A DNA stretch of 64,000 nucleotides, taken from IMG/VR virus record IMGVR_UViG_3300031963_000044, positions 38,636 to 102,635 of that record; one strand, 5' to 3'. The stretch comes from a virus. Every line of letters starts with the position of its first letter. Position 1 is the stretch's first letter. The notes beneath the pieces were generated by a model that was not told the origin of the DNA, searched no databases, and worked only from the letters and a program-made list of their open reading frames with translations. Positions 29,077 through 63,491 of this stretch are shown one piece after another. Position numbers and translations under genes: made by a program.

Positions 29077-31413
29077 TTAAAATATATATGAAACTGCGAA
29101 TTGTTGTATGCCTTCTCTTACTTGTGGCGACTGTAATTTAGAAATAACCACTAAATCTTTATCCTCATCATATAAACCAATTTCAGTAACATATGTTGAA
29201 GTATTTGCTGACCATGTTGGGTTACTACTAATTTTAAACTGATTATTTGTTAAATTAACAACATATTTCATCTGATAAATGGTTGATTGTATATCTGTTT
29301 CAATATTACCATAGAAATAATATTCATCACCAAAATTTAAGCAATTACTGGTTTCATTAAGGTCGGGTAATGAAATGTATGAATCTAAATTATATGTTGC
29401 ACCATTATCATATAACATCTTATCAATTATAAATGAAGTTGTAGTTAATGAATTAACTGTTAAATATCCAGATGATAAAGTTGAAGCGGAAACTTGATTA
29501 GTAACATCAATTTCTTTCCAGTTAGTTGGGGAAGGTCTCTGATTTCCAATAACTTTTTGAGCTAAAATTATTATTTTTTCAGCATAAAATCCGGTATTAC
29601 ATGTTGTACCAGTTCTTAAGAATGGAAATTCGTCACCAAATCTAACAACAATATTTTTTTGTGTTGGGTCACATTCTTGGTCTGGTCCTTGTATTACACT
29701 ATAATAGTTACAATGCAATGAATTTGTAAAAGTACTATTATCAAAACGATATGTTAACCACAAATATTCCTGATTATTAGTTAATAACCCCTCATTAATT
29801 GATGAATAGTTTTGACATAAATTTGGTGAAAGTAAACTAATATTCGGTGCTGGTAATGTCCAGTTTCTGTTTGCTTTATAAGACATTGCAGCAATAATTT
29901 CTTCATCATCAATGATTACCATTTTAGAATCCGGGTAAACCTTCCCAACCCTATTCAAATTACCATTCGAATCTGGATTTAAATCCCAAAGATGGTAATA
30001 CCTCATACCCTGAGAAACCATATCATACCTTTCAGTTACCATATAACAAACATTTAATCCACTATAACCCGGAGGATCAATATAGAATGTTTCACCAATT
30101 GTGTTACCTGTTGTTTTGTGCCATAATAACCAAGGAATATCTAATTTAAAGTTTTGTGCTAATCCTGTTGTTCCAGATGTTTCAGCATTAAGTTCTTGTG
30201 TTGCAAATTTTTCACCATATTCAAAATCAATTCCTTGATTTGTATAATGAATTATTGCAATTGCTTTCTGGTCTTTTGGTTCAACATAAATTTGTTCATC
30301 AAAAGAATTGTAGTAAAAAGTATCCGTTGTGGTGGTAATTCCAGAAGAATTAATAAATTTTTGACCAGAGTTTGTTTGATATCCAAAATATTCTTTTGAA
30401 CCTAGATAATTTTTACTAGCAAAATAATTAACATCTTTTGTTTTTGAAGAAAAAATACCTGCTGGCGATTCACTCCAAGGAATTGCCATATTCCAAATCT
30501 TAACATAATCATTAGAGATGTCACAACTACTTTCAAAATTTATAGTTTCAGGATTCCAATATTGTTCGGGTGTTTCGTAATCATAAAATCCCGTAAACCC
30601 AGATGGATAAATTAATAATTGTGCTTGTCCAGTATAACCTAATGATGCTAAGTCAGGTATTTCCCTATCCAATACAAAAACATCATTTAATATACAACAT
30701 ATTCTATATGTTAAGATTGGATAACTACCAAGTTCACCACAATCAGCGTTACAATCAAAAATAATCGTTACAAAATCACCAACGATGGGTACACCCTCTT
30801 CTCTTGTATTACCACTTATTACACAAGTAGTTGTTGCTGTTGTACCGGTTAAATCACAAGGACCAAGAGTGGTTGTTGACGTTGTTGTCGTTGTGGTTGT
30901 TGATGTTATTGGATCACAACAACCGGTAAAGACAATTGGTGTTGTTGTATTACAAAACCCACTAATTACTGTTATTTTTGTTCCTCCGGTTACTGAGGAT
31001 AAATCAATATAATAATTTGATGTTACTAAATATCCCGCTTGAGTTATTGCAGACCAAGACCCACTAGAACCAGTAAAAAATCCTCTAGATGGGACATTTT
31101 CAAATACAGAATCAAAGTCTGAACTCATATAAGGTAAACCATAAGTATTATTTAGATTTTCATCTAAATAAAACGGATATTTAATATTTGCTTTATTACT
31201 TTCAGGTATACCTGTGTCATTTTGTGAATTAAATTGTGGTTGTAAAATAAAATTATCACTTTGATTATATCCAGAAATGGCATTATAAAATATCTCGCTA
31301 TCACCGACTTGGAAATATTTTATTTTAAATTTCCCTTGTGATAGTTTTCTTCTACCCACATCTGTAATCTGGGTATTTACTATTTTATTTGTATTTTTTA
31401 AAATATATGACAT
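29077..31413 (-). CDS. Large virion protein, tandem paralogue 2 (Thr-rich linker)
   Basis: A 778-residue protein clearly duplicated from or into its neighbour: it begins MSYILKNTNKIVNTQITDVG and shares RRKLSQGKFKIKYFQVGDSE, GDFVTIIFDCNADCG, the WNMAIPWSESPAGIF block and YYHLWDLNPDSNGNLNRVGK. Where the neighbour has a Pro/Thr linker, this one has TTTTTTTSTTT at about residue 175. The ATG at 31413 is preferred to a TTG one codon before. Pairs of related fibres usually reflect different receptor specificity on a common scaffold, which would be the inference here. Confidence 0.65.
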   Translation of the reverse strand: MSYILKNTNKIVNTQITDVGRRKLSQGKFKIKYFQVGDSEIFYNAISGYNQSDNFILQPQFNSQNDTGIPESNKANIKYPFYLDENLNNTYGLPYMSSDFDSVFENVPSRGFFTGSSGSWSAITQAGYLVTSNYYIDLSSVTGGTKITVISGFCNTTTPIVFTGCCDPITSTTTTTTTSTTTLGPCDLTGTTATTTCVISGNTREEGVPIVGDFVTIIFDCNADCGELGSYPILTYRICCILNDVFVLDREIPDLASLGYTGQAQLLIYPSGFTGFYDYETPEQYWNPETINFESSCDISNDYVKIWNMAIPWSESPAGIFSSKTKDVNYFASKNYLGSKEYFGYQTNSGQKFINSSGITTTTDTFYYNSFDEQIYVEPKDQKAIAIIHYTNQGIDFEYGEKFATQELNAETSGTTGLAQNFKLDIPWLLWHKTTGNTIGETFYIDPPGYSGLNVCYMVTERYDMVSQGMRYYHLWDLNPDSNGNLNRVGKVYPDSKMVIIDDEEIIAAMSYKANRNWTLPAPNISLLSPNLCQNYSSINEGLLTNNQEYLWLTYRFDNSTFTNSLHCNYYSVIQGPDQECDPTQKNIVVRFGDEFPFLRTGTTCNTGFYAEKIIILAQKVIGNQRPSPTNWKEIDVTNQVSASTLSSGYLTVNSLTTTSFIIDKMLYDNGATYNLDSYISLPDLNETSNCLNFGDEYYFYGNIETDIQSTIYQMKYVVNLTNNQFKISSNPTWSANTSTYVTEIGLYDEDKDLVVISKLQSPQVREGIQQFAVSYIF
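30868..30910 (-). repeat. Poly-Thr coding microsatellite
   Basis: GTTGTTGTCGTTGTGGTT-type trinucleotide units on the plus strand encode a run of threonines in the 778-residue virion protein. Similar tracts occur at about 33018-33064 and 36543-36575 in two other tail proteins. Thr runs are potential O-glycosylation sites and phase-neutral length variants. Confidence 0.7.
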
Positions 31414-31435
31414 CAATATCCTTTACTATAATTAT

Positions 31436-33337
31436 TTAGATTCTCGTTTGTTCCCATAAAAATTCAATAGAATTTGCATTTAATGGAATAACATATGAAT
31501 ATGTTGTTGAGCATGTACCTAAACCACCATTTAATGTCGTTAAAGTAGTATATGCGCCAGAATTTATAGAAACCTTTAATGTTCCAAATATTTTTGCACA
31601 TGCACCACCACTTAAAAGCCCACCTAATTGTAACCATAAATTTATAATACCCCCTCTTGTTCCAGCTTGTACCGTTAATTGATTTGTGGTAACTCCGGTT
31701 AATGGTCCACCATTTACAGTATTTGCTAATGGGAAGCAACTAGTATTTTGTATTAAACAACCTGTTGTAAAATTATATGATATTTTTGGTGTTGTACCCG
31801 GAGATGTTGGGTTATTTACATTTCCGCCATATGTAAATCCACTAAGTGCTGATTCGGTATTTGTTAACCATTTGTTTGTAAATGATATATTTAATGGCGG
31901 TAAAATATAATTTAAATTGTTTGTGAATTGTGTATTTTTTACCAATCCGGAACTAATTGAGCGACATTTTTGTGGTGTGATTGTTAAATTTTTAGTTCCA
32001 TATGACACAAGATTATTTGCTGACGATGTACAACCTAATACAGACGATGTTGCTGATAATGATGTGTTTGAATATACACTACCACTTAATGTATCACCAT
32101 ATGTTAATGAAACAGAATTATATTGTGTTATAGACGTTACAGATGTTAGTGTATTTGCTGAACAAACGCCGGAACCAACGGTGGTATTAGTTATTGTAGA
32201 CGTTAAACCTGTTAATAAATTACCGTTTTTATATAATAATAAGTTATTTGTAAATACAGCATTACCCGGAGACTGAAAACTAGTATTAGTTCTAAAGTCA
32301 AAATCAAAAGTTAAAGTTTCACCAACTTGTAATATTGGGTTTGGTGTGATTACAAATGGTATAATTTCTTTCGTTTGTGAGAATTGCTGAATTATATCAT
32401 AAACATTAGTTGGTGGTGTATATACTGTTGTTGGACTTGTTGTTGAGAAGTTCAAACTAAAAGTTCTTGTATTTGTTGTGTTCGATACAACCACAACATC
32501 AGATTTTGTTAAATTTGTTACAGTATCTTTAATTACTATTGTATATGACCCAGAATCTAAATTACTAAAAACAGGAGATGATTGATAGGTTAATCCACCA
32601 TTTTTTGAAAATAAATAAGAACCGGAACCACCATTAGGGGTTACAATTATTGATCCGTCTTTTGAAGATTGACAAGCTGAATTTGTTATCGACCTAGAAA
32701 ATGTTGCTGTCTGAGAACCGCAATTTCCCACCACAGCATAAACCTCAGGTCTATAATTTGAACCTTCAACCAACCAAGATAATGGTGGATTAGCCGTTGG
32801 TGGGTCATTTGCATATGTAATACCAGCATTGTAGCCTAATGGTGCGGTATAACCATCAAAAATCCATCTATTAGTTATTATATCATAATAAACTGTTAAT
32901 GTGCTTGATGTCCAAGAATTATATCCATTTATAATATTTCCGGCTTGGAATGTAAAATTATCACAGATATTAGTTTTACATCTACTTAAACAAAAAGTAA
33001 CACCTGAGGTATAAGGTATTGTTGTTGTCGTTGTTGTATATGTTGTTGTGGTTGTTGTTGGTTGTATTAAAACACAAGTGGTAACTGAGGTAAAATCACC
33101 GTAATAATCTGTAACGGTTGCGGTATATTCACCACCACCAAGACCATATAAAGTTTGACTTGTTGCACCATTACTCCATTGTATATTATATGGTGCTGTT
33201 CCCCCTGTAATTATTAATGACGCGATACCGTCAAGTGCAAGTGATGTTGACGGATTTGTTGTATTACACTCAACACCCAGTGGAAAAATTGTTACCACTT
33301 TACATTCATTAGTTGTTCCGCTACCTATTAATCCCAT
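31436..33337 (-). CDS. Virion protein with SprB-type repeats and Thr linker
   Basis: A 633-residue protein. Residues about 20-90 are a SprB-type repeat (ITGGTAPYNIQWSNGATSQT then GGGEYTATVTDYYG). A TTTTTTYTTTTTTIP linker at about 94-108 follows. The segment after it (GNIINGYNSWTSS, YYDIITNRWIFDGY) is a small domain seen in related fibres. A second SprB-like unit begins SSKDGSIIVTPNGGSGSYLF. The C-terminal third is Asn/Thr/Ser-rich beta. There is no signal peptide, so it is not a secreted host-type protein; the context is the tail operon. Likely fibre or adhesin component. Confidence 0.6.
   Translation of the reverse strand: MGLIGSGTTNECKVVTIFPLGVECNTTNPSTSLALDGIASLIITGGTAPYNIQWSNGATSQTLYGLGGGEYTATVTDYYGDFTSVTTCVLIQPTTTTTTYTTTTTTIPYTSGVTFCLSRCKTNICDNFTFQAGNIINGYNSWTSSTLTVYYDIITNRWIFDGYTAPLGYNAGITYANDPPTANPPLSWLVEGSNYRPEVYAVVGNCGSQTATFSRSITNSACQSSKDGSIIVTPNGGSGSYLFSKNGGLTYQSSPVFSNLDSGSYTIVIKDTVTNLTKSDVVVVSNTTNTRTFSLNFSTTSPTTVYTPPTNVYDIIQQFSQTKEIIPFVITPNPILQVGETLTFDFDFRTNTSFQSPGNAVFTNNLLLYKNGNLLTGLTSTITNTTVGSGVCSANTLTSVTSITQYNSVSLTYGDTLSGSVYSNTSLSATSSVLGCTSSANNLVSYGTKNLTITPQKCRSISSGLVKNTQFTNNLNYILPPLNISFTNKWLTNTESALSGFTYGGNVNNPTSPGTTPKISYNFTTGCLIQNTSCFPLANTVNGGPLTGVTTNQLTVQAGTRGGIINLWLQLGGLLSGGACAKIFGTLKVSINSGAYTTLTTLNGGLGTCSTTYSYVIPLNANSIEFLWEQTRI
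33018..33064 (-). repeat. Poly-Thr coding microsatellite
   Basis: Trinucleotide GTT/GTC/GTG repeats on the plus strand encode the Thr linker of the 633-residue protein, between a SprB-type unit and the next domain. Confidence 0.65.
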
Positions 33338-33338
33338 T

Positions 33339-33551
33339 TTATGGTGTTTGACAATTTATTATTTCACATCCATTACCATCCACCGCTTTAATACAAAAAG
33401 TTTCCATAATATCATACGGTGGTGGTATAATAAAATCATATGGTAATGATGAAATTGTTGCTATCCAAAAACAGTTATCTTCATCAGAATCACAAACATA
33501 AATATCATATGGTGTCTGACCTGTTATATTATTTATTGTTACTTGTATCAT
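33339..33551 (-). CDS. Single-domain virion protein, 70 residues
   Basis: The protein reads MIQVTINNITGQTPYDIYVC then DSDEDNCFWIATI and ends with a Cys-rich turn (AVDGNGCEIINC). The first 65 residues align with the N-terminal domain of the 265-residue protein at 44060 (MCTLTFNSITGASPFDVFV), so this is that domain as a free-standing gene. Overlap of 4 bases with the upstream RCC1 gene and one base from the next gene show it belongs to the tail operon. A small Ig-like decoration or adaptor is likely. Confidence 0.55.
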   Translation of the reverse strand: MIQVTINNITGQTPYDIYVCDSDEDNCFWIATISSLPYDFIIPPPYDIMETFCIKAVDGNGCEIINCQTP

Positions 33552-36184
33552 GATTCACAAGGGGTTTGATCTGTTGTTATATTAACAAAATTAGGATTGA
33601 TATTTTCATCAATAACTATTGTATTTAAACAAGCACAAATTGTGACAGTTGTTGTCGATGGACCAAGACCACCTCTACCTAATATTGAATTTATTAATGT
33701 GTTATTACAATCAATATAAGTAAACGGTACTTCAAGTGTAGAATAATTGCTTAAAGTATATGTAACACATTCGCAATCAGGACATGGACATTCCGAATCT
33801 ATTGAGTTAAAACACAACCCAATTGGATTAACATAGTCATTATCACAAACAGGACAAATTGGGTTTTGTCCAACGCCTAACTGACCGTATGAATTGGTAC
33901 CCCATGTAAATATTGTACCATTAATATCTTTTGCGAAAAAAACTAAGTTTTGAGTTCCAATGCCGCCTTGTTCCGCTTGACCACCAGCCCAGACATAACA
34001 CCAATCATTTTTTGTTTCTAAATTAATTCTATCAATATTGTCTTGTAAAAGTGTTTTTACATTTGATCCATATCCTTCACCCCAAGTCCAAATTCTGTCA
34101 CCATTTAAATTCGGTGTCCAATTCACACCATTTGGTGCAGTAAATGGTGCAAAATTTAAAGTTATACCAGACGTAATGGCTAATGTCATATCACCAACAG
34201 CTATTACTGATGTATATCCTGAATTTGTATTAGCACCTTCAGATTGAGAACTTGGTGGATTTACAGAAATTCCACCATCCATAGGAAACGGTCTTGAATT
34301 ATCAACCGAACCACAATTAAAGCAATCTAACTGACCTTGGGTATTTTGTCCCCATCCCCATATTGATGTGTTATCAGCTAATGCAACGGAATGATAATTT
34401 CCTGCGGATATTTGATTAAACACAACACTATTTGAATATAATGGGTATGTTGGTATTGTAATTTGTGTTGGTATTTGAGCTTCTTGATTAGCTGGTCCCG
34501 CACCTAATCCTAATGGGTTTCTCTGAGGAATTGTTAAATTAGTTCCCCAAGAATAAATAGTTCCATTATTTTTCAAACCAAGCGTATGAAATAATCCTCT
34601 AGCAATTTCTTCCCAATCTGTATCAGAACCAATCTGTGTAAATTGCATTTTATCTAAATTATCACCTAAACCTAATTGATATTTTTCATTAAAACCTGTT
34701 CCCCAAATTGTACCATTACTTCTAAGAGCAATTGTTGCTGTATTTTTTGACCATATTTTTAACCACCCATTTGGGGTTGGTGAGGTGACTTGAGTTAATG
34801 TATCAATATTAGATATACCATCGTTTAATCCTAGTTGATCTCCACCATTATTTGAGGAAGAATTACCGCAAACAAATAAATCCCCATTTGAATTGATTGC
34901 AAATGTTGATTCTAAACCAGCTTCTACATAAACCCAAGGGTATGCACCACTTGTTGGGTCTATCATTTGTTGTGGTATATAGAAAGAACCGCCAGTATAT
35001 CCTAAACCTAATTGACCAACTGAATTGCTTCCCCAAGAAAATAATGTATCACCACTAATACCCACCGTATGTCTATCACCAACTGAAATCATTGTAAATC
35101 CACAATCAGAACAAGTTGGTTCTGGTGTTGGTGTTGGGGGAGGACCATCGGGAATTGGTATACAACTACTATCACAAGATGTTATTAAAACAATTCTAAA
35201 TTGACCATTACCCGCACTCCAAGTATTATTACCCAATAGTGTTTTAGGAGTTATTATAGAACATGCACAAATTTGTATTGATTCACCAGCATTTAAATTT
35301 GTTATAATTTTTGGTTGATTATTACAATCATTATACACAAAATTATCATTTCCAAATATTCTACCAATTTGGTATCTATCGCAACAATTACAGGTACAAC
35401 CAGTATAAATTGTTGTTATACAAGTTGCAGTAAGCGTATTTGCGCTTAACATGTATCCTGACGGACATCCCGCCTTAACAAAAGGTCCAGTTTTTCCTGC
35501 TGTGGTTAATAAAGAATTTGTACTATAAATAATATCCAAATCATTATCATTAGTCGCATTAATAATTTCAGAATATGTGCTATCATATATTACTAAACCA
35601 ACCGCATTTTGAATAATACCTGACGAAGTAATTGTTAAATTAATATGATTATCACAAGATAGTAAAGTAATTGGAATTATGTGCCAAAATCTATGATAGA
35701 GTTGTGAATTTGAACCAATTATAGACGCATCACCAGATAAAATAATATCATTATTTATTGTTAAATTTATTTGTCCTGTTGGATAAATCCAAGCCCCAAA
35801 ACCTAGATAATACTGATTTGTTGTTCCTGAATTATAAAAATAATAACTAAGAGTTAATTCACCTGAAATTATTTCTGTTGACCCATTGCAATCTCCGTCA
35901 TACCAAACAGCTTGTCTATTCATGGGACCAAAAATTGAATTTCCTGTTGATCCCCACTGAGTTGCTGGTGAAGTTAAATTCGCTTGAATACCCAAAAATC
36001 CGGGGTCAGATGGAAATTCAGCATAAATCGATTCATTAGTAAAATTTGTATTATAGATTCTTGTACCATTAATACTATATTGAACATTATCTACTTTAGA
36101 TAAACAACCAATAGTACTTGCTGTTACACTAGTAGTGTTTGAAGAAAAGCAATAAGAACCACCACTACAATATTGATAAGACAT
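33548..36184 (-). CDS. Virion protein with seven-blade RCC1-like propeller
   Basis: An 878-residue protein. Residues about 30-240 are a beta domain shared with the 616-residue protein (GPMNRQAVWYDGD, YYLGFGAWIYPTGQINL, GLVIYDSTYSEIINATNDND). A TPTPEP linker precedes, from about 360 to 775, seven RCC1-type blades: FSWGSNSVGQLGLG, FVCGNSSSN...QLGLND, WGTGFNEKYQLGLGD, YSWGTN...NPLGLG, WGWGQNTQGQLD, IWTWGEGYGSN and FTWGTNSYGQLGVG. Seven is the canonical number for a closed RCC1 propeller. Two copies of a Cys-rich domain flank it (YNDCNN, ICAC). RCC1 folds bind proteins or glycans; receptor binding is inferred. Confidence 0.75.
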   Translation of the reverse strand: MSYQYCSGGSYCFSSNTTSVTASTIGCLSKVDNVQYSINGTRIYNTNFTNESIYAEFPSDPGFLGIQANLTSPATQWGSTGNSIFGPMNRQAVWYDGDCNGSTEIISGELTLSYYFYNSGTTNQYYLGFGAWIYPTGQINLTINNDIILSGDASIIGSNSQLYHRFWHIIPITLLSCDNHINLTITSSGIIQNAVGLVIYDSTYSEIINATNDNDLDIIYSTNSLLTTAGKTGPFVKAGCPSGYMLSANTLTATCITTIYTGCTCNCCDRYQIGRIFGNDNFVYNDCNNQPKIITNLNAGESIQICACSIITPKTLLGNNTWSAGNGQFRIVLITSCDSSCIPIPDGPPPTPTPEPTCSDCGFTMISVGDRHTVGISGDTLFSWGSNSVGQLGLGYTGGSFYIPQQMIDPTSGAYPWVYVEAGLESTFAINSNGDLFVCGNSSSNNGGDQLGLNDGISNIDTLTQVTSPTPNGWLKIWSKNTATIALRSNGTIWGTGFNEKYQLGLGDNLDKMQFTQIGSDTDWEEIARGLFHTLGLKNNGTIYSWGTNLTIPQRNPLGLGAGPANQEAQIPTQITIPTYPLYSNSVVFNQISAGNYHSVALADNTSIWGWGQNTQGQLDCFNCGSVDNSRPFPMDGGISVNPPSSQSEGANTNSGYTSVIAVGDMTLAITSGITLNFAPFTAPNGVNWTPNLNGDRIWTWGEGYGSNVKTLLQDNIDRINLETKNDWCYVWAGGQAEQGGIGTQNLVFFAKDINGTIFTWGTNSYGQLGVGQNPICPVCDNDYVNPIGLCFNSIDSECPCPDCECVTYTLSNYSTLEVPFTYIDCNNTLINSILGRGGLGPSTTTVTICACLNTIVIDENINPNFVNITTDQTPCES

Positions 36185-36207: not shown

Positions 36208-38058
36208 TTATGGACAACAATCTGTTGTAGTTGATGTTGTTGTGGTTGTTGCCGGAACGCAGTTATTACAATCGCAGAATACCGCATTAATTTCAGTCAC
36301 AACAGTATTTGGTGAAATATTCATAACATCCTCAAGATAAGTTGCACAATCATATTCACCATTAAATAATGCATTAATCGTTTCTCCAGTCTGAACGTAT
36401 GTTGTTCCGGTAACTAAATTATCAACAGTATAATAAATTTGTCCTGTTGTACAACTTTGTAATTTTTTAACAACATCAGGACAAATAAATACGGTATTAA
36501 CTAATTCAAATACACTACTACCGCTAAGTCCAACTGTTGGTACTGTTGTTGTTGATGTGGTTGTTGTCGTTGTAATTGATGTTATTGCTGTAATTGTTAT
36601 ATCAATACTTGTTGCTGAACATGGATTTGGTAATGGTGTCGATGTTGGTACCGGTGTTGGTGTGGGTGTAATGGCGTTATCGCATATTGTGTATGATAAA
36701 CAATTACCACTACAAGATTGATAGACATAACCAGATGGACATGTGTAGCCTGAAGTTAAATAAGTAAACCCAGAATCAGCAACCAAATCAAAAATACCGC
36801 CAATTTGTGAAGATGTTGTATAAATAATATTTAAATCACTATAAACCGTTGCTGCGGTCAATTCAGATAATGTATTATCATAAATTTCGCAACCAAATGC
36901 CGCATCGGAACTAGTATTTAAACCAAATAATTCAATGACGTTTGTTCCCTGAGGAACATCAATAGGATAAACATGCCAATATTTGAATGATGTTGTATCA
37001 TTCCAAATAGATTGAACAACTGTTTGCCCGTTAAGTCTAAATGAGAACTTATTATCAGCACCTAGACCAACATAATAAGTTTTTGCCGATGTTGATTCAA
37101 TGCAGAAAGAATAACCAATCCAAGTATCCTCTGGTAAATCTGTTCCACCTGTTAATGTTGTCCAAATACCCGATCTATTTAATGGACCATCTATTATAGT
37201 ATTTCCTGAAGTATTTCCCGTATTTTCCCAAACTGTTGTTCCTGTTAAATATGAAACAGTGGTACCAGTACCGTCAATTGAATAACCCGAATCATAAATA
37301 AAAGTTCCAAATTCTGAATATTCAAAATAAGTTTGACTAATTGCACTGTAAGTGGTTGCTGAATTTGGTGTTGTTGCCGCCGTTGTCTGAATACAAACAC
37401 ATGATGTACCAGTATATGGTTGCCAATCACAAGAAGATGGTGAGCATATACAACATATTTGACAAGGTGTTGGCGTTGGTGTGCAATCAAAAATCGCATC
37501 AAAATTAATTAGACACGTAGTTGTTGTGGTTGTCGTTGGGCATTGACCTGTAAAAAATATATCATCACATATATCTGGACATATTGATTGACAAGGTTCA
37601 GCACCAAATAAAATACATGAACCACCCAATGAACTAGACAAACACCATTTATTACCGTCATAATAAACAACTGCGGTTACTCCACTTGTTGTTGCAGTAT
37701 AAAAATAATTACCATTATATGAACCAACCACTTGATAATCACCGTCATAACTTATTGTATCTACAAAATTTGTATTTAAGCAATATTTTCCAATATCACA
37801 AAGAGTATTAGCACTTAAACACTCTTCACATGAAGTATATGTCGCTGTTACTGTAACAAAAGAACCCTCAAAGGTATATCCGGAGCCTGAAAAATTTACG
37901 ACAGTAGAACAACCAGAGTATGGTTGCGCTCCATTCGATGTGTTTCCGGTATATTCAATAAAATATGTTGACCCTGTTGATAGGGAGGTTAACGTATATG
38001 CACTTAAAATGAATAGATAATCATTATTTGCACAATCTCTAAGTTGATAATCAGCCAT
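36208..38058 (-). CDS. Virion protein with fibre-type domains and Thr/Pro linkers
   Basis: A 616-residue, Cys- and Thr-rich beta protein. It contains a small domain ending CLSSSLGGSCILFG (about residue 145), linkers TTTTTTC and TPTPTP, and at residues 250-430 a domain paralogous to one in the RCC1 protein (GPLNRSGIWTTL, YYVGLGADNKFSFRLNG, WHVYPIDVPQG, IYDNTLSELTAATVYSD). The YYVGLGADNKFSFRLNG core is reminiscent of PA14-type carbohydrate-binding folds. It ends with Thr-rich tails (TTTTTSTTT). A promoter-like box lies upstream. Likely an adhesin-type tail protein. Confidence 0.6.
   Translation of the reverse strand: MADYQLRDCANNDYLFILSAYTLTSLSTGSTYFIEYTGNTSNGAQPYSGCSTVVNFSGSGYTFEGSFVTVTATYTSCEECLSANTLCDIGKYCLNTNFVDTISYDGDYQVVGSYNGNYFYTATTSGVTAVVYYDGNKWCLSSSLGGSCILFGAEPCQSICPDICDDIFFTGQCPTTTTTTTCLINFDAIFDCTPTPTPCQICCICSPSSCDWQPYTGTSCVCIQTTAATTPNSATTYSAISQTYFEYSEFGTFIYDSGYSIDGTGTTVSYLTGTTVWENTGNTSGNTIIDGPLNRSGIWTTLTGGTDLPEDTWIGYSFCIESTSAKTYYVGLGADNKFSFRLNGQTVVQSIWNDTTSFKYWHVYPIDVPQGTNVIELFGLNTSSDAAFGCEIYDNTLSELTAATVYSDLNIIYTTSSQIGGIFDLVADSGFTYLTSGYTCPSGYVYQSCSGNCLSYTICDNAITPTPTPVPTSTPLPNPCSATSIDITITAITSITTTTTTSTTTVPTVGLSGSSVFELVNTVFICPDVVKKLQSCTTGQIYYTVDNLVTGTTYVQTGETINALFNGEYDCATYLEDVMNISPNTVVTEINAVFCDCNNCVPATTTTTSTTTDCCP
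36543..36575 (-). repeat. Poly-Thr coding microsatellite
   Basis: GTTGTTGTTGATGTGG-type repeats on the plus strand encode a run of threonines in the 616-residue protein. A shorter tract lies near its C-terminus at about 36225-36250. Confidence 0.6.
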
Positions 38059-38082: not shown

Positions 38083-39063
38083 TCAGTAACCTTGTTTTTT
38101 AACAAGCAACCTCATATTTTCAACGTATTTATATGTTGCATTATTTTTATCAACATAATCAAAAAAATCAATATTATTTCTTAATGAGTCTAACGGATTT
38201 TTATTAATAAAATCCGCCTTATAAAATCTTTCGTTTTTTTGTTGTTCGGTAATTCCAGCTAAATGAAAAATTGGGTTTGTTTCATATTTGTGAATGTCAT
38301 CGGTTGCCCAAGAAAAATTTAATTCATTCACCACTTCGGTTTTATACCCCGCATACCACATATTCCATAGAATGGACCACATTTCAGCGGTCCAAAATTG
38401 TATTTCACCGGGAGAAATTGGATATTTTTTATGAAAACTTAAAAGTTTATCATATAATTCAGTTGAATCTTTATGGATTTTATCCCATAATTTCCATTCT
38501 TGTTTTTTAAAAACATATTGAGCACCGCCTGAATTTTTTTGATTTATCCTTATTGTTTCAGGATGTAATCCAATAACTTCCGACATTTCATCGATTAATT
38601 TATTTTCAGATAATATTGGATGTTTTTGTTCATATCTTTTAGAACATTCATTTAAGTAACTATAACCTATATATCCAACAGTATCAGACATATAAATAAT
38701 ATCGTCATCTAAAAGTTTTGAAAAATTAGGAATTCTGGTTAATAGAATATCGGAATCATGTAAAAAAAATAAATTACCTCTGCTTGGTTCTTCTTTTAAC
38801 CACTTTGAAATTAAAAATGGTTTTATGCTTGGAATATAATGAGTTTTTTCTCTATCATCTTTGTAAAAATGAACATTACCATATTTTAATTTTAGCGTCC
38901 TAGCACCCTTAGATGGTTTGTCCGCGCCATTATGAAGAGAAAAAATAACATGAATATTTTCTGGGGGTACTCCCTTTTCAATAAAATTATTTATATATAC
39001 CTCTGCTTGCCAATGGAAGTAAGGTACATCATGTTGTGCCGATACAAATAATAATTCACTCAA
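38083..39063 (-). CDS. Glycosyltransferase-like protein (GT-A fold, DSD motif)
   Basis: A 326-residue protein with a GT-A-like layout. The first strand (ELLFVSAQHD), a nucleotide-sugar region (VIFSLHNGADKPSKG), and LFFLHDSDILLTR, where DSD at 103-105 would bind the metal and sugar nucleotide. The C-terminal half contains PGEIQFWTAEMWSILWNMW. There is no membrane segment. It overlaps the sulfotransferase gene by 4 bases and lies in the middle of the tail operon, suggesting that it modifies virion proteins or a host surface polysaccharide. Substrate unknown. Confidence 0.65.
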   Translation of the reverse strand: MSELLFVSAQHDVPYFHWQAEVYINNFIEKGVPPENIHVIFSLHNGADKPSKGARTLKLKYGNVHFYKDDREKTHYIPSIKPFLISKWLKEEPSRGNLFFLHDSDILLTRIPNFSKLLDDDIIYMSDTVGYIGYSYLNECSKRYEQKHPILSENKLIDEMSEVIGLHPETIRINQKNSGGAQYVFKKQEWKLWDKIHKDSTELYDKLLSFHKKYPISPGEIQFWTAEMWSILWNMWYAGYKTEVVNELNFSWATDDIHKYETNPIFHLAGITEQQKNERFYKADFINKNPLDSLRNNIDFFDYVDKNNATYKYVENMRLLVKKQGY

Positions 39064-39881
39064 AGGTTTCTATAAAAAATATCATAATACCATTTATAAC
39101 GGTCTTGAATCCAATTACAAACACCCTCACCTAAGATTTCTTTTGCGTTACTTTTTGGTAATTCAAGTTTTGTTTTGATTGTGTGGTCGCCATATATTCC
39201 ATATACAGAATCATCTTCTTTTGTTATTTGATCAATTCTATCAAAAGAGTGATAAAAAGTTGGTAATTCAAAATAATTATAAATCCTTTCAACTTCTCTT
39301 CTTGGGTTAGTTACCAAATCTTCGTATCTTATAAAAAGCATTTTTTGATTATTTCCTTCCCTAAAAATTTGATATAGTCTTTCAACTGCTAAACCAACTG
39401 GTTGACTATTTGCCCAAATATCAACTCTTTTCTCGGTTGTTGTGCCTAGCATTTTTGAGTGGTCTATTAAACCGGAATCCATATGCTGATTTTCCCTAAA
39501 CTTTTTTTCAAGAGAACAAAATATGTCTCGTAAATCTCTAACCATACAAATTATTTTTGGATTTGGATAAAATCCATCTAAAAAATTGTAATGTATTCCC
39601 CACCCTCTACTTTTATCTAAAACATATTTTTTATCTGTAATTGCATTAAAAAAACCAAACATACCGTCATGACAAAATTTATTAAAACCACTTTTCATTA
39701 ATTCATATTCTTGTGCTTTAAATTCTGGTGAATTTGTATAATTATTTCTAGCAGCATAAACCAATTCAAGAACACCAGAAGTCGGTGTTACATAAAAATT
39801 TGGATTTTGTCCTATTATATTTTGTAATAAAGTTGACCCCGCTCTAGGTAATGAGGATTGAAAAAATATTTGTTCTGGCAT
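39060..39881 (-). CDS. PAPS-dependent sulfotransferase
   Basis: A 273-residue protein with both PAPS-binding elements of the sulfotransferase superfamily: a 5'-phosphosulfate loop QSSLPRAGSTLLQNII at residues 8-23 and a 3'-phosphate segment MVRDLRDIFCS at 113-123 (Arg115, Ser123). The C-terminal part has MLFIRYEDLVTNPRREVERI, usual for these enzymes. It would transfer sulfate from PAPS to a sugar or tyrosine hydroxyl. Its overlaps with two glycosyltransferase genes (4 bases and one base) suggest a three-enzyme pathway making a sulfated glycan. A PAPS source must come from the host. Confidence 0.82.
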   Translation of the reverse strand: MPEQIFFQSSLPRAGSTLLQNIIGQNPNFYVTPTSGVLELVYAARNNYTNSPEFKAQEYELMKSGFNKFCHDGMFGFFNAITDKKYVLDKSRGWGIHYNFLDGFYPNPKIICMVRDLRDIFCSLEKKFRENQHMDSGLIDHSKMLGTTTEKRVDIWANSQPVGLAVERLYQIFREGNNQKMLFIRYEDLVTNPRREVERIYNYFELPTFYHSFDRIDQITKEDDSVYGIYGDHTIKTKLELPKSNAKEILGEGVCNWIQDRYKWYYDIFYRNL

Positions 39882-40759
39882 TATTGTAAAATTGTTTGAA
39901 TTACGATTTCAGGATTAAAAATATTATCATCAATAAATGGGCATTCTTGTGTTGAACCATTAAATGAATAATCGAATAAATAACTGTCTGGTAGTTTTAT
40001 TTCGGGTAAATTAGATATGATATTTTTATGTAGTCCATAACCAAAAACTGTTGGACTAGTCCCGACCCAGAGAACCACTGAAGGTAAACCCATTGCCGCA
40101 GCAGCGTGTTGTAAACTAGAATCAATTAAAACTCTTTTTTCTGATGCCATTAATAGCGAAAAAAGCTCCATATTTGTCATGGGTTTAAATAAGGGTTCAG
40201 TTCCTTCAATTACATTATTTTCATTTCTACAAATCTGTATTATATGATAATCATTTTTAAAAGCATTTACAATTGCTTGTGATGTAGAAAATGGCATATC
40301 TCTTGTCCAAGAGTAATTATATGGTTGTTCATTTATTGGACCACCATTTGTCTGAAGTATCATAATTGGTTTATTACGTCTCCAATCTCTAATTGCTAAT
40401 TGTTTATGTCTTAAATTAAAAACTAATTCAGGTGTTTCATTATTATATGTTAAATTATATATATTACACCAATTTTCAATTAGATGTTTCCTCTTGTAAA
40501 TATGGTCTGTTGTAAAGTATGGTTCATGTTTAAATATTAAAGTATCATTATTTAATATGTAATCCTGATAGAAATATGGCGTAATTCCAATTCTAAAAAC
40601 TCTATCAACAAAAGGTAATGTTAAAAATACCTCAGGATAACTCGCAACAACAATTAATTTTCTATCTTGATAGTTATTCTTAATACATTTTGCAACTGCT
40701 GTTGCTGCAACATTCTTTCCAAGACCACCTTCTATGTGAAAAAGACAATATTTTTCCAT
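39881..40759 (-). CDS. Glycosyltransferase family 9-like protein
   Basis: A 292-residue GT-B-type protein related to heptosyltransferases. The N-terminal Gly-rich turn FHIEGGLGKNVAATAVAK replaces the usual GDxxxxxP element, and the C-terminal donor site is conserved (LIDSSLQHAAAAMGLPSVVL then WVGTSPTVFGYG, residues 211-242). GT9 enzymes add heptose or related sugars to polysaccharides. It is the first gene of the glycosyltransferase/sulfotransferase cassette. It lies directly downstream of the YadA-like fibre gene, a context that suggests fibre or surface decoration. Confidence 0.7.
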   Translation of the reverse strand: MEKYCLFHIEGGLGKNVAATAVAKCIKNNYQDRKLIVVASYPEVFLTLPFVDRVFRIGITPYFYQDYILNNDTLIFKHEPYFTTDHIYKRKHLIENWCNIYNLTYNNETPELVFNLRHKQLAIRDWRRNKPIMILQTNGGPINEQPYNYSWTRDMPFSTSQAIVNAFKNDYHIIQICRNENNVIEGTEPLFKPMTNMELFSLLMASEKRVLIDSSLQHAAAAMGLPSVVLWVGTSPTVFGYGLHKNIISNLPEIKLPDSYLFDYSFNGSTQECPFIDDNIFNPEIVIQTILQ

Positions 40760-40806: not shown

Positions 40807-43800
40807 TTAAGGTACGTAATATAGTCGATTTGAATCGGTTGAGCAATAATATATTGACCCTGACGGTAGCCCAATAGGTCCGTTTGGTAATCCAATTATT
40901 GATAAATTATTAACAAACGTAGCACAATTTCTATTTGGTATGATATTTGACCCAATAATAAAGGTGTTTGTATTACCTGTTATAGTATTATTTACACCGC
41001 CTAAAATACCAGATGATGTGGTTGCTCCAGAAATTATATTACCGCAACCACCGCCAATAAATGAATAAACACCGCTTTCGGAATTATTAAATCCTCCAGC
41101 AATTGTTGAGCGACAACCAGATGATATATTTAATTGTCCTCCACCAACAAATGAATAATTTCCTTGCGATCTATTTTGAAATCCACCTGATACCACAGAG
41201 AAATCACCATTTGGAATCCCTATCGCATTAATTAATATTGCTTGTGCGTCACTTGTACCTCCTGTTGTGTTAGCACCAATTCCTGCTGCAATAGAACCAC
41301 ACCCTGTTGCAAAATTATTAACGCCAGCATTTATTGTTGAGTAGTTACCGCTAGCACTATTTCTAGCTCCACCGGTTATTGTTGATCTTGTTGTGGCGCT
41401 ATTTGCCCTACCGCCACCGATTGTTGATACTAATCCATAAATATAATTTTCCCTCCCACCGGCTATTGTTGAGTCGCATAAAATACAATTACCGCTTCCA
41501 GTTATAGTATTCCCTGAACCTCCGCCAATAACGCTATATTTTTGGGCATATATTGAATTATTGTAACCACCACCGATAAATGAACCTTCGGCATTTTGAA
41601 GACCGACTATTGGTGAAATTAAATTAGAACGACCACCAACAATTGTAGAAAAGATTGTTGTAGCACTATTGCAACTTCCACCAACAATTAATGAACATAA
41701 ACCTGTTGCGGTATTTAAAAATCCGCCACCAATAAATGAATAATTATTAGAAGATAAATTATTTTGACCACCAACAACAGTTGCGTAAGTTGTTGTCGCA
41801 CTATTAGAACAACCTCCACCGATAAATGAACCACTACCACTAGCAATATTTGATAATCCTCCAACAACTACAGAAATAGCTGATGTTACACAATTTGAAC
41901 TACCTCCACCGATAAATGAACCATCGCAACTAACAATATTTGATAATCCTCCAACAACTGATGAATAAAGAGTTGTTGCGCCAGAAATTATATTACAGCG
42001 ACCACCGCCAATAAATGAATAAGTACCAATATTAACATTTAATGCACCTCCAACAACCACAGAAGCGTCAGATGTTGCACAATTTGAACTACCTCCACCG
42101 ATAAATGAACAAGGACCACAAGATAAATTATTTTCACCTGCAACAATAACTGAACAACACGTTGTTGCACTATTCGAACCACCACCTCCAACAAATGAAT
42201 TGTTTCCAGATGATAAATTATTTTCACCTGCAACAATAACTGAACAACACGTTGTTGCACTATTGTTAAAACCACCCCCTATAAATGAACCTGAAGATAA
42301 TGCTTTATTTGAACTTCCACCTCCTATAAATGAACAGTTTCCGGATGATAAATTACATTCACCAGCAACAATAGTCGAATATGTTGTTGTTGCACTATTA
42401 GAACAACCTCCACCGATAAATGAACCACTACCACTAGCAATATTTGATAATCCTCCAACAACGCTTGAATAAAAATTTGTCGTTCTATTTAAATAACCAC
42501 CGGTTATAACCGAACCAAAACCACTCGCAATATTTAAACATCCACCACCAATTGATGCATTATTATTGCAAATTAAATTGTTACTACCTCCAATTATAGA
42601 TGAAAATGAACCACATATTTTATTATTATAACCACCACTTATAGTAGAATAAAATGAATTTCCACTAAAACAACTTAAATTAGTGATGGAACCCTGAAAA
42701 TAAACATTAGAACCGGTATCAAAAACATCTAATTGTATTTCAGTATAAGGTGGATTATATGTACTATTAGTTATTGCCGCACTATATATCACATTATCAA
42801 TCCCATTATAAAAAGACGCTAAATTACCAATTTGATATATTGAAGTCAAATCTCCGGGAACACACACGGTATTACCTACATTATAATACGCACTTTGCGT
42901 TGTATTATTCAAACCATACCAATTTAAAATACCCCCACCAATAAAGTTATTAAAACCGTTATTTAAAGCAGAATTACCTTGACCACCAGCAATAACGGTA
43001 CCTATTTGGCATGTGTTATTTGAATGACCATACACCGTCGAGTAAGCGCCGGACGCAACATTAAGATTGTCTCGCCTAACCGAACTACAACTTCCGCTTC
43101 CAGAAATAATTACTGGTTGTGTCCATCCAGTAACCTGTACAGTACCGGCATCGGTTCTAGTTAATGTTAATGTATTTGTATTATCATCATAAGTTCCACC
43201 AGTAACATAGAAATCAGTATATCCACTTGTAAATCCACTAACAACAAATGTTCCACCAGAATTATTAAAGTAGGTTACTTCACCATTTAATGGATTATAT
43301 GTGCCACCAGTTACAAAAACATCACCATATCCGGGTAATGTTACCGTTAATAAAGTTCCATCATTTCTTGTTGCACCTAAAGTATATGATGCTCCGGTAT
43401 ATGTTAATCCCGTAACAAATATATCCGTAGATGTTAAACCACTGATATCAAATGTCCCACCAGAATTGTTAGTAAAACTTAGAGTACCAGCAGAATATGT
43501 TCCACCCGTTACATATACATCAAATGATGAAGATCCACTTTGTGATAAAATTCTCCAATTTGCTGTCGCATATGTTGCACCCGGAGTTATTCCTTCAATT
43601 GTTGATGCTGTCCAAGCATCAATAAATGCTTGACCTTCGGGAGTTGAGCTATCAACCGTAGTACCAAATTGTGTTATTGTGACTGCGGTTGTTCCTGTTG
43701 CCGCACTAAATAATGATGTATAATTCGGAATGTTATATTGATATGTTGTTTCATTTTCATAAACATATGCTAACATTCCTAATCTTCTTCTACCAGAAGA

Positions 43801-44058
43801 TATATTATCAGAATTTAAAGTTAATACATCAGGATTTGGTGTGTTTATATTTAAACGTATTGGAATTGTATTTCCTGAAGTTTCAACAGGTCCAGAAGAA
43901 CCCACCGGTATTGTATAAATTAAATCATTTACAGAATATACTTCAACATAACCACCAATACCTAATATACTAAAATTAGTTCCATAAAATCGATTTGGAT
44001 TTACCGATTCGGGCGCATTTAATTGCGTTGCTGTTTGTGGATTTTTATATAATGACAT
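40807..44058 (-). CDS. Tail fibre with YadA-head-type repeats
   Basis: A 1083-residue fibre in three parts. Residues about 1-165 are an attachment region. Residues 170-330 hold shaft repeats (DVYVTGGTYSAGTLSFTNNS, DVFVTGGTYNPLNGEVTYF, DFYVTGGTYDDNTNTLTL). Residues about 460-1020 consist of some three to four dozen short units of the type SFIGGGSSNCATS and SVIVAGENNLSSG, the Hep/Hag (YadA-like head) repeats of trimeric adhesins, which stack as a left-handed beta-roll. It ends GLPSGSIYYCSTDSNRLYYV with no recognised chaperone domain. By analogy it is a trimeric receptor-binding fibre. DNA-level repeats show recent internal recombination. Confidence 0.8.
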   Translation of the reverse strand: MSLYKNPQTATQLNAPESVNPNRFYGTNFSILGIGGYVEVYSVNDLIYTIPVGSSGPVETSGNTIPIRLNINTPNPDVLTLNSDNISSGRRRLGMLAYVYENETTYQYNIPNYTSLFSAATGTTAVTITQFGTTVDSSTPEGQAFIDAWTASTIEGITPGATYATANWRILSQSGSSSFDVYVTGGTYSAGTLSFTNNSGGTFDISGLTSTDIFVTGLTYTGASYTLGATRNDGTLLTVTLPGYGDVFVTGGTYNPLNGEVTYFNNSGGTFVVSGFTSGYTDFYVTGGTYDDNTNTLTLTRTDAGTVQVTGWTQPVIISGSGSCSSVRRDNLNVASGAYSTVYGHSNNTCQIGTVIAGGQGNSALNNGFNNFIGGGILNWYGLNNTTQSAYYNVGNTVCVPGDLTSIYQIGNLASFYNGIDNVIYSAAITNSTYNPPYTEIQLDVFDTGSNVYFQGSITNLSCFSGNSFYSTISGGYNNKICGSFSSIIGGSNNLICNNNASIGGGCLNIASGFGSVITGGYLNRTTNFYSSVVGGLSNIASGSGSFIGGGCSNSATTTYSTIVAGECNLSSGNCSFIGGGSSNKALSSGSFIGGGFNNSATTCCSVIVAGENNLSSGNNSFVGGGGSNSATTCCSVIVAGENNLSCGPCSFIGGGSSNCATSDASVVVGGALNVNIGTYSFIGGGRCNIISGATTLYSSVVGGLSNIVSCDGSFIGGGSSNCVTSAISVVVGGLSNIASGSGSFIGGGCSNSATTTYATVVGGQNNLSSNNYSFIGGGFLNTATGLCSLIVGGSCNSATTIFSTIVGGRSNLISPIVGLQNAEGSFIGGGYNNSIYAQKYSVIGGGSGNTITGSGNCILCDSTIAGGRENYIYGLVSTIGGGRANSATTRSTITGGARNSASGNYSTINAGVNNFATGCGSIAAGIGANTTGGTSDAQAILINAIGIPNGDFSVVSGGFQNRSQGNYSFVGGGQLNISSGCRSTIAGGFNNSESGVYSFIGGGCGNIISGATTSSGILGGVNNTITGNTNTFIIGSNIIPNRNCATFVNNLSIIGLPNGPIGLPSGSIYYCSTDSNRLYYVP
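41798..41868 (-). repeat. 71-base exact direct repeat, copy 1
   Basis: Identical to 42392-42462, 594 bases away and in frame with it. It encodes about one and a half YadA-type units in the fibre gene. The identity at DNA level, in a protein whose other units vary, indicates recent duplication or gene conversion. Confidence 0.85.
42122..42264 (-). repeat. 53-base exact direct repeats, 90-base period
   Basis: Two identical 53-base copies at 42122-42174 and 42212-42264 lie 90 bases apart, i.e. 30 codons. They encode the NSATTCCSVIVAGENNL region twice. They are in frame, so unequal crossing-over would change fibre length by 30 residues without a frameshift. Confidence 0.85.
42392..42462 (-). repeat. 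71-base exact direct repeat, copy 2
   Basis: Second copy of the repeat at 41798-41868; recombination between them would delete or duplicate 594 bases (198 residues) of the fibre head, keeping the frame. Confidence 0.85.
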
Positions 44059-44860: not shown

Positions 44861-46993
44861 TTATATATCGTCACATGTTATATCATAAATAATTATAAGT
44901 TCAATTTTTACTCCAATATCACTTAAATTATTATTTAATGTGCAATCGGAATTTATAATTATTTGGTTATTTGTATAATCAATTGTAACATCACCAATAC
45001 CACTTATAGATTCAAGTAAAGTTTCTATTGTTCCATAAAGTTGTTCATCTGTTGGTACATCAATTAATGAATAACTTGTATAAACCGAACCAGATGTTGT
45101 TATTGTATTTGCAGTGACGCTTGCAATAAATTGAGCATTGTTAAGAACACATGTAGTGTCGCCGGTTGTTATATCCTGAAAACCATAATTTAACATTTCA
45201 ATTAACCCAAATTTATTACCATAACTTAACTCCATATTATCGGAACAAATATTGAATGTTCTATATCCAGTATAAAGTGCGCTACAAGTAATTTCTATTT
45301 CTTGCGTATCTGTACAACCATTACTATCGGTTATAGTTACTGAGTAGTTACCAGAAGTTAATCCTGTTGCATAAATACCGCTAGAAACGCTTGGGAACCA
45401 ATTTATTGTAAACGGTGGTGCACCAGATGTTAATATTACAGTTATTGTTCCTTCACTACCTAAACCACAATCTGTGCCAAATAATGTGAAGTTTAATGGT
45501 GGTTCTTCTTGTATATAAAAACTTGAACTGATTACGCAACCTTCTTGGCTAGTTACATTTGCAACATAATTTCCTGTGGGTAAATTTGTAAATGTAAAAT
45601 TATCATCAACAGACAATGAACTTAAATTAACGGGTCCACTTATTTCATATAAAAATGGTGATGTGCCGCCTGTTGTTTTTTGTATTAAAACAACGCCATT
45701 ATTTTGTCCGCAAGTTGACCCGGTTGTTGAGGTAGAAACGTTAAATAAGGGTGTTGATATTATTGACAACGATTGTGTATAAACACAAGTTGTACTACTT
45801 GCTGAAATAATTAAAGTGTATGAGCCACCTGATAAATTAGTGAAAGTTTGTGTTAAAAAATTAGATATTAACGACTCAGTACCATTTGGTCCGTCTATTT
45901 GATAGAAATATGGTGCTGTTCCTCCATTTATTACAACACTAATTTGACCATCGGTTGCACCACAAGTTGTATTAACGACATTTACAGAAACAATATCAAA
46001 GGTATTTGGTGTTTCTAATGAGGTTGTTAATTGCGTATTGCATAAACCAACATCAGTTATTGATACGCTAAATGGTCCTGAAGAAAGTCCAGTAAACACA
46101 TAATTTGTTGAATATGTAATTTCTGTTGTAGCATTAGAACCGGAATAAAAAAATGGGCCGGTACCTCCCGTTACTGTTATAGTTATTTCCCCATCAGAAG
46201 AAAAACAGCTTGGAGAAATTACACTAGTTACAAAAGCACCCAACGAATCTGTTTGAGGTAAGTTATAAGCCGTAGTCAAAGAGCAGTTATCTGCTGAAGT
46301 CACATTAACGGTATATAGACCACTTGTTAAACCACTGATTGTACTTCCAGTTTCGCTTAAAATAGGTCCATTAATATCGCTCCACTGATAAGTAAATGGT
46401 GGTGTTCCAGTTTCCCCTGTTATAATTATTTTTCCACCAGTGCCGACACAACTAGTTGCGGGTATAATAAATGCACCATATGTTAAATTAGTAGATTCGT
46501 GAATAATACATGTTTCAGTAACACCAGTACATCCACCAGCATCTTCAATAACCCCATAATAGATTCCGGGAGATAATGAGATAAATGTATGACTTTCACT
46601 TGTTGCTGTATAGCTATCAACTAAAGATGTACCACTATATAAATAAAAAACATTTTCAAATGGAGAACTTGTATTACCTGATATTGTGATTTCACCATTA
46701 TTTTGATTACAAGTTGTATCTACTACATTTATTATTGATGCGCAAGCACCCGAACTAATTGTAACGTTTACTAAGCTAATATTATTTGGTGTACTTGAGT
46801 CGTTTACCTCCACAAAATATGTTCCAGCGGATAATCCAGTTTGTGTTTGTCCGGTACCTAAATATGGGTCATACCACAAATAACTAAAAGGAGATGTGGT
46901 ATTAACATTAGGTACTGCGGTTAAAGTCGCAGCACCAAGATTACTATTTGTACAATCACCGGTTAATATTATATTGACATCAAAAATATTCAT
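44861..46993 (-). CDS. SprB-repeat virion protein
   Basis: A 710-residue protein built mostly of seven SprB-type Ig-like repeats. The units follow the pattern C-x-x-x-x-G-x-I-x-I, then GGT-x-PF-x-Y, then GL-x-x-G-x-Y-x-V-x-V-x-D-x-x-GC; examples are GTPPFTYQWSDINGP, GGTAPYFYQIDGP and SGAPPFTINWFPS. These repeats are known from SprB, the mobile gliding adhesin of Flavobacterium, and other secreted Bacteroidota proteins. The last 130 residues form a different domain (YRTFNICSDNMELSYGNKFG). With no secretion signal and a position in the tail operon, it is probably a virion adhesin. Confidence 0.78.
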   Translation of the reverse strand: MNIFDVNIILTGDCTNSNLGAATLTAVPNVNTTSPFSYLWYDPYLGTGQTQTGLSAGTYFVEVNDSSTPNNISLVNVTISSGACASIINVVDTTCNQNNGEITISGNTSSPFENVFYLYSGTSLVDSYTATSESHTFISLSPGIYYGVIEDAGGCTGVTETCIIHESTNLTYGAFIIPATSCVGTGGKIIITGETGTPPFTYQWSDINGPILSETGSTISGLTSGLYTVNVTSADNCSLTTAYNLPQTDSLGAFVTSVISPSCFSSDGEITITVTGGTGPFFYSGSNATTEITYSTNYVFTGLSSGPFSVSITDVGLCNTQLTTSLETPNTFDIVSVNVVNTTCGATDGQISVVINGGTAPYFYQIDGPNGTESLISNFLTQTFTNLSGGSYTLIISASSTTCVYTQSLSIISTPLFNVSTSTTGSTCGQNNGVVLIQKTTGGTSPFLYEISGPVNLSSLSVDDNFTFTNLPTGNYVANVTSQEGCVISSSFYIQEEPPLNFTLFGTDCGLGSEGTITVILTSGAPPFTINWFPSVSSGIYATGLTSGNYSVTITDSNGCTDTQEIEITCSALYTGYRTFNICSDNMELSYGNKFGLIEMLNYGFQDITTGDTTCVLNNAQFIASVTANTITTSGSVYTSYSLIDVPTDEQLYGTIETLLESISGIGDVTIDYTNNQIIINSDCTLNNNLSDIGVKIELIIIYDITCDDI

Positions 46994-63029: not shown

Positions 63030-63491
63030 TTAAATATTAAGAATAATAAAATCTGTGGAACCAAAAGCACTACTTGTATCAACATAATCGATTCTTACTT
63101 TTGCTGTATATTCATATGTTTGTTTTGCCGGTTCTCCAACAGTTCTATTAATCACATTACCCGCAGTTGTAACAAAGGATGAATCTTCTTCGCTACTTGC
63201 TGCTGTTACGGTAATATTTTTTATTTGTAGTTGAGGTATAAATTTTTCAACCGCTTCTCTAATATCAGATTCAATACTACCAAAAGTGGGACCATCCAAT
63301 GGTTCAAAGATATATTCATAAAGTCTGGTACCAAAGTCGGGAAGATAATATCTGGTTCCTTTTTTTGTAAGTAATAAATGAATCAAATTTGAACGCAATT
63401 CATCATTTGTGTAGTTGGATAACTCCAAATATTTCCCCTCTGAGGATTCTCTAAAGGGAAATATTATACCGTATGTTTTTCCTTCCGCCAT
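63030..63491 (-). CDS. 25: Baseplate wedge protein gp25-like
   Basis: A 153-residue GPW/gp25 family protein: IIFPFRESSEGKYLELSNYT, then LRSNLIHLLLTKKGTRYYLP and DFGTRLYEYIFEPL, with GSIESDIREAVEKFIPQLQI. The L-L-L-T-x-K-G-x-R-x-x-x-P-x-F-G-x-R-L stretch is the family signature. gp25 links baseplate to sheath in contractile tails. An insertion of about 20 residues after AASSEEDSS, relative to short gp25 proteins, is seen near the C-terminus. A promoter-like box lies 22 bases upstream, so this gene probably begins the baseplate transcript. Confidence 0.93.
   Translation of the reverse strand: MAEGKTYGIIFPFRESSEGKYLELSNYTNDELRSNLIHLLLTKKGTRYYLPDFGTRLYEYIFEPLDGPTFGSIESDIREAVEKFIPQLQIKNITVTAASSEEDSSFVTTAGNVINRTVGEPAKQTYEYTAKVRIDYVDTSSAFGSTDFIILNI

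Follow-up and report, generated by a model that had tools for sequence, protein, structure and literature searches.

Putative virion-modification modules in a phage tail operon: a poly-threonine-associated glycosyltransferase and a GT9–sulfotransferase pair

A cassette of three enzyme genes in the tail operon of an IMG/VR phage probably represents two neighbouring virion-modification modules: a GT-A fold glycosyltransferase (family phrog_4417) that would act on poly-threonine tracts, and a GT9-like glycosyltransferase with a PAPS-dependent sulfotransferase (ST) that would act on a beta-roll fibre. The cassette lies in the window, the whole 64,000-nucleotide stretch analysed, which corresponds to bases 38636–102635 of a 102,635-base IMG/VR record. 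A sequence-only reading had described three overlapping genes (38083–40759) flanked by a YadA-type fibre and other tail genes; both the ORFs, all on the minus strand, and their overlaps were confirmed.

Cassette layout and enzyme identities

The GT9 and ST ORFs overlap by 1 base and the ST and GT-A ORFs by 4 bases; gaps of 47 nt and 24 nt separate the cassette from the upstream fibre gene and the next tail gene, respectively (Table 1). The TTG start of the GT-A gene coincides with the Met of its homologues. The same GT9-ST-GT-A arrangement was found at 100% identity in two more IMG/VR contigs, L002 (256 kb) and L003. The surroundings of the cassette are a contractile-tail operon, as shown by Pfam matches to gp25 and baseplate J, whose genes lie upstream of the beta-roll fibre gene, with further tail proteins encoded downstream of the cassette. 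Since the window fibre was not recognised by Pfam, a motif counter was used for beta-rolls; the fibre reached a repeat score of 10, compared with 4 or less in shuffled proteins. SprB repeats, a Bacteroidota gliding-adhesin repeat, are present in two tail proteins (window 44861–46993 and the 633-aa protein) and therefore suggest a Bacteroidota host. An 878-aa protein of the tail operon (33548–36184) carries RCC1 propeller repeats.

Table 1. Features of the cassette and of its surroundings (positions in the window)
Feature	Position	Strand	Remarks
gp25	63030–63491		Pfam match
Baseplate J	61183–63021		Pfam match
YadA-head-like beta-roll fibre	40807–44058	minus	1083 aa; 15-residue repeats, 36 motif matches; likely GT9/ST acceptor
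GT9-like glycosyltransferase	39881–40759	minus	292 aa; first gene of the GT9/ST pair
PAPS-dependent sulfotransferase (ST)	39060–39881	minus	273 aa
GT-A fold glycosyltransferase, phrog_4417	38083–39063	minus	326 aa
Tail/fibre protein	36208–38058	minus	616 aa; directly downstream of GT-A; three Thr tracts
Thr tracts of the 616-aa protein	37516–37536, 36544–36573, 36223–36249
Tail protein	31436–33337	minus	633 aa; SprB repeats; tract TTTTTTYTTTTTT at 33020–33058
Tail fibre, DVGRRKLSQG family	29077–31416	minus	779 aa; tract TSTTTTTTTSTTT at 30868–30906

The enzyme identities proposed from the letters of the DNA gained support from Pfam for the ST, from AF2 modelling and Foldseek for the GT9, and from phrog_4417, the DxD motif and AF2/Foldseek for the GT-A. 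The ST matched PF13469 (2e-19) and PF00685 (6e-14), both over the cut-off, and contains the 5'-phosphosulfate-binding loop (PRAGST, residues 12–17) and the 3'-phosphate-binding R...S pair (R115/S123) of PAPS-dependent sulfotransferases, together with K90; PRxGST, R115 and S123 were invariant across 25 diverse phage ST sequences. Its closest solved chains were TPST1/2 (9e-14), and the Lys region around K90 aligned with a TPST Lys. The catalytic Glu of TPST lies in an EET motif. This motif aligned with PTS in the phage family, where the catalytic-Glu position is Thr/Ser in the profile, and the ST was therefore not filed as a tyrosylprotein sulfotransferase, although this is its nearest relative by sequence. 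The sole NCBIfam match was the nodulation protein NoeE, weak and far under its cut-off. The sequence-only reading had regarded a PAPS sulfotransferase in a tail operon as unusual. The ST is not rare, with at least 587 relatives in IMG/VR, though matches to it occur in only 10 of the 50,697 records of isolate phages.

The GT9-like protein scored 16.5 bits against PF01075, under the cut-off of 22, and its profile found no match in a sequence search of PDB chains. The top four Foldseek matches of its AF2 model (pLDDT 90.9) were 3tov, WaaF, WaaC and TibC (E 1e-10 to 8e-9), and by this modelled fold it is a GT-B fold, heptosyltransferase-like enzyme of the GT9 family. In WaaC, the catalytic residue is Asp13, located after the N-terminal Gly loop; at the apparently corresponding position, the phage family has an invariant G14-K15. 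The GT-A protein belongs to phrog_4417 (1.8e-66); it had no Pfam match, and its profile had none in a sequence search of the PDB. Its AF2 model (pLDDT 94.2) matched UGGT, WbbM and glycogenin in Foldseek (E about 1e-6 to 1e-5), and its DxD residues D103 and D105 are invariant (D95/D97 in the wider family). Predicted fold and DxD motif together identify it as a GT-A fold glycosyltransferase.

Association of phrog_4417 with poly-threonine tracts

Tracts of five or more Thr residues were present in 78 of 87 GT-A loci and in none of 84 loci without GT-A (0 of 1,329 genes), the latter being nearly all GT9 loci. The locus sets obtained from the IMG/VR scans (79 GT9 loci, 80 retained of at least 208 GT-A loci and 80 retained of at least 587 ST loci) are redundant and in part limited in number, so that raw locus counts overstate independence, and the tests to trust are the de-replicated and homologue comparisons. 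After de-replication, tracts were found in 11 of 15 GT-A clusters and in 0 of 29 GT9-only clusters (p 2e-7). Tail-tube homologues ended in a Thr tail at 20 of 23 loci with GT-A, compared with none of the eight loci without it, which came from Staphylococcus and Parageobacillus phages (p 2e-5). Homologues of the 779-aa fibre of the window had tracts at 31 of 32 GT-A loci and at 13 of 47 loci without GT-A in the stretch examined (p 1e-10); the tracts of those 13 loci were mostly short, and may be served by other enzymes or by a GT-A elsewhere in the genome.

Among Firmicutes phages and prophages, GT-A lies mostly in the head–tail region. In the named Firmicutes genomes, a Thr-tailed ORF ended directly upstream of GT-A in 35 of 36 cases, and most of these loci contained a second or third Thr-tailed ORF. 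Of the Thr-tailed proteins checked, most were major capsid or major tail proteins, and these belong to unrelated families (phrog_10, 840, 29; 88, 238). An example is the major tail protein of phiFL1A, which is encoded upstream of GT-A and ends in the Thr tail TTTTTSTTTTTTSSTTTTTTTQASSK. In phage PLE3 of Lacticaseibacillus casei BL23, phrog_4417 is gp09, and the candidate targets with a C-terminal TTTTTTT are gp07 (capsid), gp08 and gp14 (tail).

When the association was viewed from the side of the tracts, 12 of 103 random poly-Thr10 stretches contained GT-A, compared with none of 120 poly-Ala10 controls. The absence of phrog_4417 from the other 91 (~88%; set L178–L297) means that poly-Thr does not require this enzyme, and other enzymes may serve those stretches. 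Very long Thr tracts were common in viral contigs. Some GT-A loci had no Thr tract within the stretch examined. The 256-kb relative has just four ORFs with a Thr tract, and three of these lay within about 10 kb of GT-A.

phrog_4417 is hence linked to genes for virion proteins that carry a Ser/Thr-rich candidate acceptor. The simplest reading of this strong comparative evidence is that the Thr tracts would be the acceptor of phrog_4417, which we infer to be a virion poly-Thr O-glycosyltransferase. In the window, the 616-aa protein is a likely acceptor of GT-A. The window tracts mix codons, with all four Thr codons present, and therefore do not constitute a perfect DNA repeat.

Distribution and neighbours of the GT9–ST pair

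The retained ST loci formed 39 clusters at 85% identity. GT9 was adjacent to the ST in 24 of them and within 5 kb in 30, in either order and frequently with overlapping genes, while an APS kinase lay within 5 kb in 17 clusters; the detectors for 2OG oxygenases, APS kinase and beta-rolls were built from the loci analysed. The linkage to fibres in other phages, on whose absence the sequence-only reading had staked its own refutation, was observed for GT9-ST, with a beta-roll fibre within 5 kb in 25 of the 39 ST clusters. The three genes as a set were not kept together in the same comparison, in which GT-A lay within 5 kb in just 1 of 39 ST clusters and 1 of 35 GT9 clusters, and about 8 kb away from the pair in L070. 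A conserved three-enzyme pathway was rejected, as GT-A adjoins GT9/ST in the window lineage only. By comparison of these loci, GT9 and ST are a mobile pair and a module separate from GT-A, the two meeting in the window lineage. GT-A has a constant position within the fibre cassette of many large phages that lack GT9-ST, and it therefore seems that the pair was inserted in the window lineage.

A beta-roll was close to GT9 in 17 of 35 clusters, compared with 5 of 120 and 21 of 120 control stretches; as the motif counter was positive in those 21 poly-Ala controls, this association is weaker than that of poly-Thr with GT-A. For half of the GT9 clusters, no beta-roll gene was detected within 5 kb. 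Gene position makes the beta-roll the most likely acceptor of GT9. In 9 of the 39 ST clusters, no GT9 was found within 5 kb, and some of these ST genes lay among or beside fibre genes, so that the ST might sulfate proteins directly.

In several relatives, the operon order was GT9, ST, APS kinase (PF01583), a small CTP_transf_like protein (PF01467) and DUF2061, with 2OG-Fe(II) oxygenases frequently ahead of GT9. The presence of APS kinase in the operon makes it likely that these ST relatives are genuine PAPS-using enzymes, and the linkage of GT9, APS kinase and beta-roll points to putative fibre sulfoglycosylation with a dedicated PAPS supply. No APS kinase or PAPS reductase was found in the 102-kb record of the window phage or in its 256-kb relative, and host PAPS would therefore be needed.

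Several loci display additional genes. A small APS kinase and a CTP_transf_like nucleotidyltransferase of 110–140 aa stand beside GT9-ST in L005, L017, L041, L049, L051, L070, L090 and L092, most of which also have a DUF2061 membrane protein there; this nucleotidyltransferase may represent a minimal enzyme of the ATP-sulfurylase type. Putative 2OG-Fe(II) oxygenases (PF13759) are encoded directly upstream of GT9 in L005, L032, L038, L041, L045, L049, L051 and L088, which suggests hydroxylation before glycosylation in those phages. The fibre regions of L177 (AG-345-L05), with two ST genes, and L007, with one, both contain GT9 together with carbamoyltransferase-like and oxygenase genes, and look like richer decoration loci.

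Proposed mechanism, alternatives and known systems

We propose that GT-A would be produced late in infection, inside the host cell and together with the tail proteins, and would move a sugar from a nucleotide-sugar onto Thr/Ser residues within the poly-Thr tracts of three tail proteins (616, 633 and 779 aa), as in mucin-type O-glycosylation. GT9 would put a sugar on the virion, with Ser/Thr residues in the repeats of the neighbouring YadA-type beta-roll fibre as the most likely acceptor, much as heptosyltransferases of the TibC type do on adhesins, and the ST would then carry sulfate onto that sugar from PAPS supplied by the host in the window phage and by a phage APS kinase in many related phages. 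Fibre shielding and adsorption tuning would be the benefit. The comparisons and models establish the identity of the genes, their folds, conserved motifs and overlap, the recurrent linkage and the coupling of GT-A with poly-Thr by presence and absence; for both modules, we infer the enzymatic activity, donors, sugar identity, acceptor residues, reaction order, timing and benefit. Comparative evidence indicates that Thr runs in the phage's own tail proteins are very probably decorated by one enzyme set; a sulfated sugar made by GT9/ST is most likely carried by the beta-roll, judging from adjacency, the beta-roll association and, by analogy, the TibC precedent. The earlier suggestion of sulfated sugars on fibres is thus upheld as regards the enzymes and their linkage to fibres, and its acceptors are sharpened to poly-Thr for GT-A and beta-roll for GT9/ST. 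A wider reading, in which phrog_4417 would be a general poly-Thr sequon enzyme that co-evolved with independently added Thr tails of capsid, tail-tube and fibre proteins in Firmicutes and Bacteroidota phages, with GT9-ST(-APS kinase) sulfoglycan fibres in addition, is tentative and has slightly less than an even chance of being right.

We consider it unlikely that the ST sulfates fibre proteins directly, on tyrosine or elsewhere, with glycosyltransferases that act independently. In favour of this, TPST1/2 are the nearest solved structures, the K90 region aligns with a TPST Lys, and ST genes lie beside fibre genes without GT9 in L586, L609 and L628; against it, the TPST EET motif aligns with PTS, and the close association of the ST and GT9 in most clusters points to a sugar as acceptor. 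It is quite unlikely that GT9 and the ST alter host surface glycans (LPS-like heptose or capsule) for superinfection resistance or receptor hiding. The resemblance of GT9 to the LPS heptosyltransferases WaaC and WaaF, the weak NoeE match and an S-SRM01 relative of the ST close to a nucleotide-sugar epimerase would fit such a role; however, GT9/ST lie inside the tail operon and, in unrelated phages, next to genes for fibres, expression of structural operons comes at a late stage, at which control of superinfection is of less use, and no membrane or export gene for such glycans was seen beside GT9-ST.

The overlap of the window genes, consistent with translational coupling, would also suit a single joint glycan primed on Thr tracts by GT-A, extended by GT9 and capped with sulfate by the ST. 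Yet outside the window lineage GT9-ST and GT-A almost always occur separately, so that each can do without its partner, and a joint glycan is decidedly improbable. That the enzymes hypermodify bases of the phage DNA, adding sulfated sugars, is scarcely credible here, although phage glycosyltransferase and sulfotransferase systems of nucleotide modification have been reported earlier (cited in PMC10829341): a thymidylate-synthase family gene is absent from both records of the window genome, the cassette is surrounded by tail fibre genes, and the association of GT-A with Thr tracts would go unexplained; the lack of a Tet/JBP match counts for little, as that search had no working control.

The reading as two virion-modification modules can be set beside known systems. 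In mycobacteriophages Che8, Corndog and Myrna (Freeman et al. 2023), phage glycosyltransferases glycosylate capsid and tail-tube proteins, according to the accessible parts of PMC12363180 and PMC12619734; those of the latter place these virion glycans at C-termini and also describe, for large Bacteroidota phages, four putative glycosyltransferases as core genes. Both systems pair phage glycosyltransferases with virion-protein targets, predicted in the case of the window. The window has apparent poly-Thr acceptors in tail and fibre proteins instead of capsid and tail-tube C-termini, and includes an ST, whereas those parts describe no sulfation for the mycobacteriophage system. TibC is a GT9-fold heptosyltransferase that glycosylates an adhesin, and TibC/BAHT form an iron-binding dodecamer assembly (PMC4358343). 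The phage GT9 shares the GT9 fold and often follows a repetitive fibre gene, but is shorter (292 aa), has no sequence-level PDB match and is paired with a sulfotransferase. The phage ST has PAPS-binding motifs and sequence family in common with TPST1/2 and PF13469 sulfotransferases, without keeping the EET motif of TPST. The sulfotransferases of S-SKS1, S-SCSM1 and S-SRM01 belong to the same family (27–31% identity to the window ST), as do those of OM43 phages, whose role is stated as unclear (PMC10580990); where that report leaves the role open, here the ST is linked to GT9, APS kinase and beta-roll fibres.

Virion glycosylation is already known, but neither the poly-Thr rule nor sulfation of phage virions or fibres turned up in the searched papers, which were mostly open-access ones. 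phrog_4417, annotated as "unknown function", gains a specific, testable role and an acceptor sequence signature, in cultivable, harmless hosts. Hundreds of environmental phages carry related enzyme sets, the Thr-linked one being present in Gram-positive prophages as well. These findings suggest that phage-encoded sulfation of fibres extends to hundreds of phages from the environment; if this is true, some virions bear sulfoglycans made from a phage-borne PAPS supply, and glycosylated or sulfated virions would alter thinking on phage adsorption and surface recognition.
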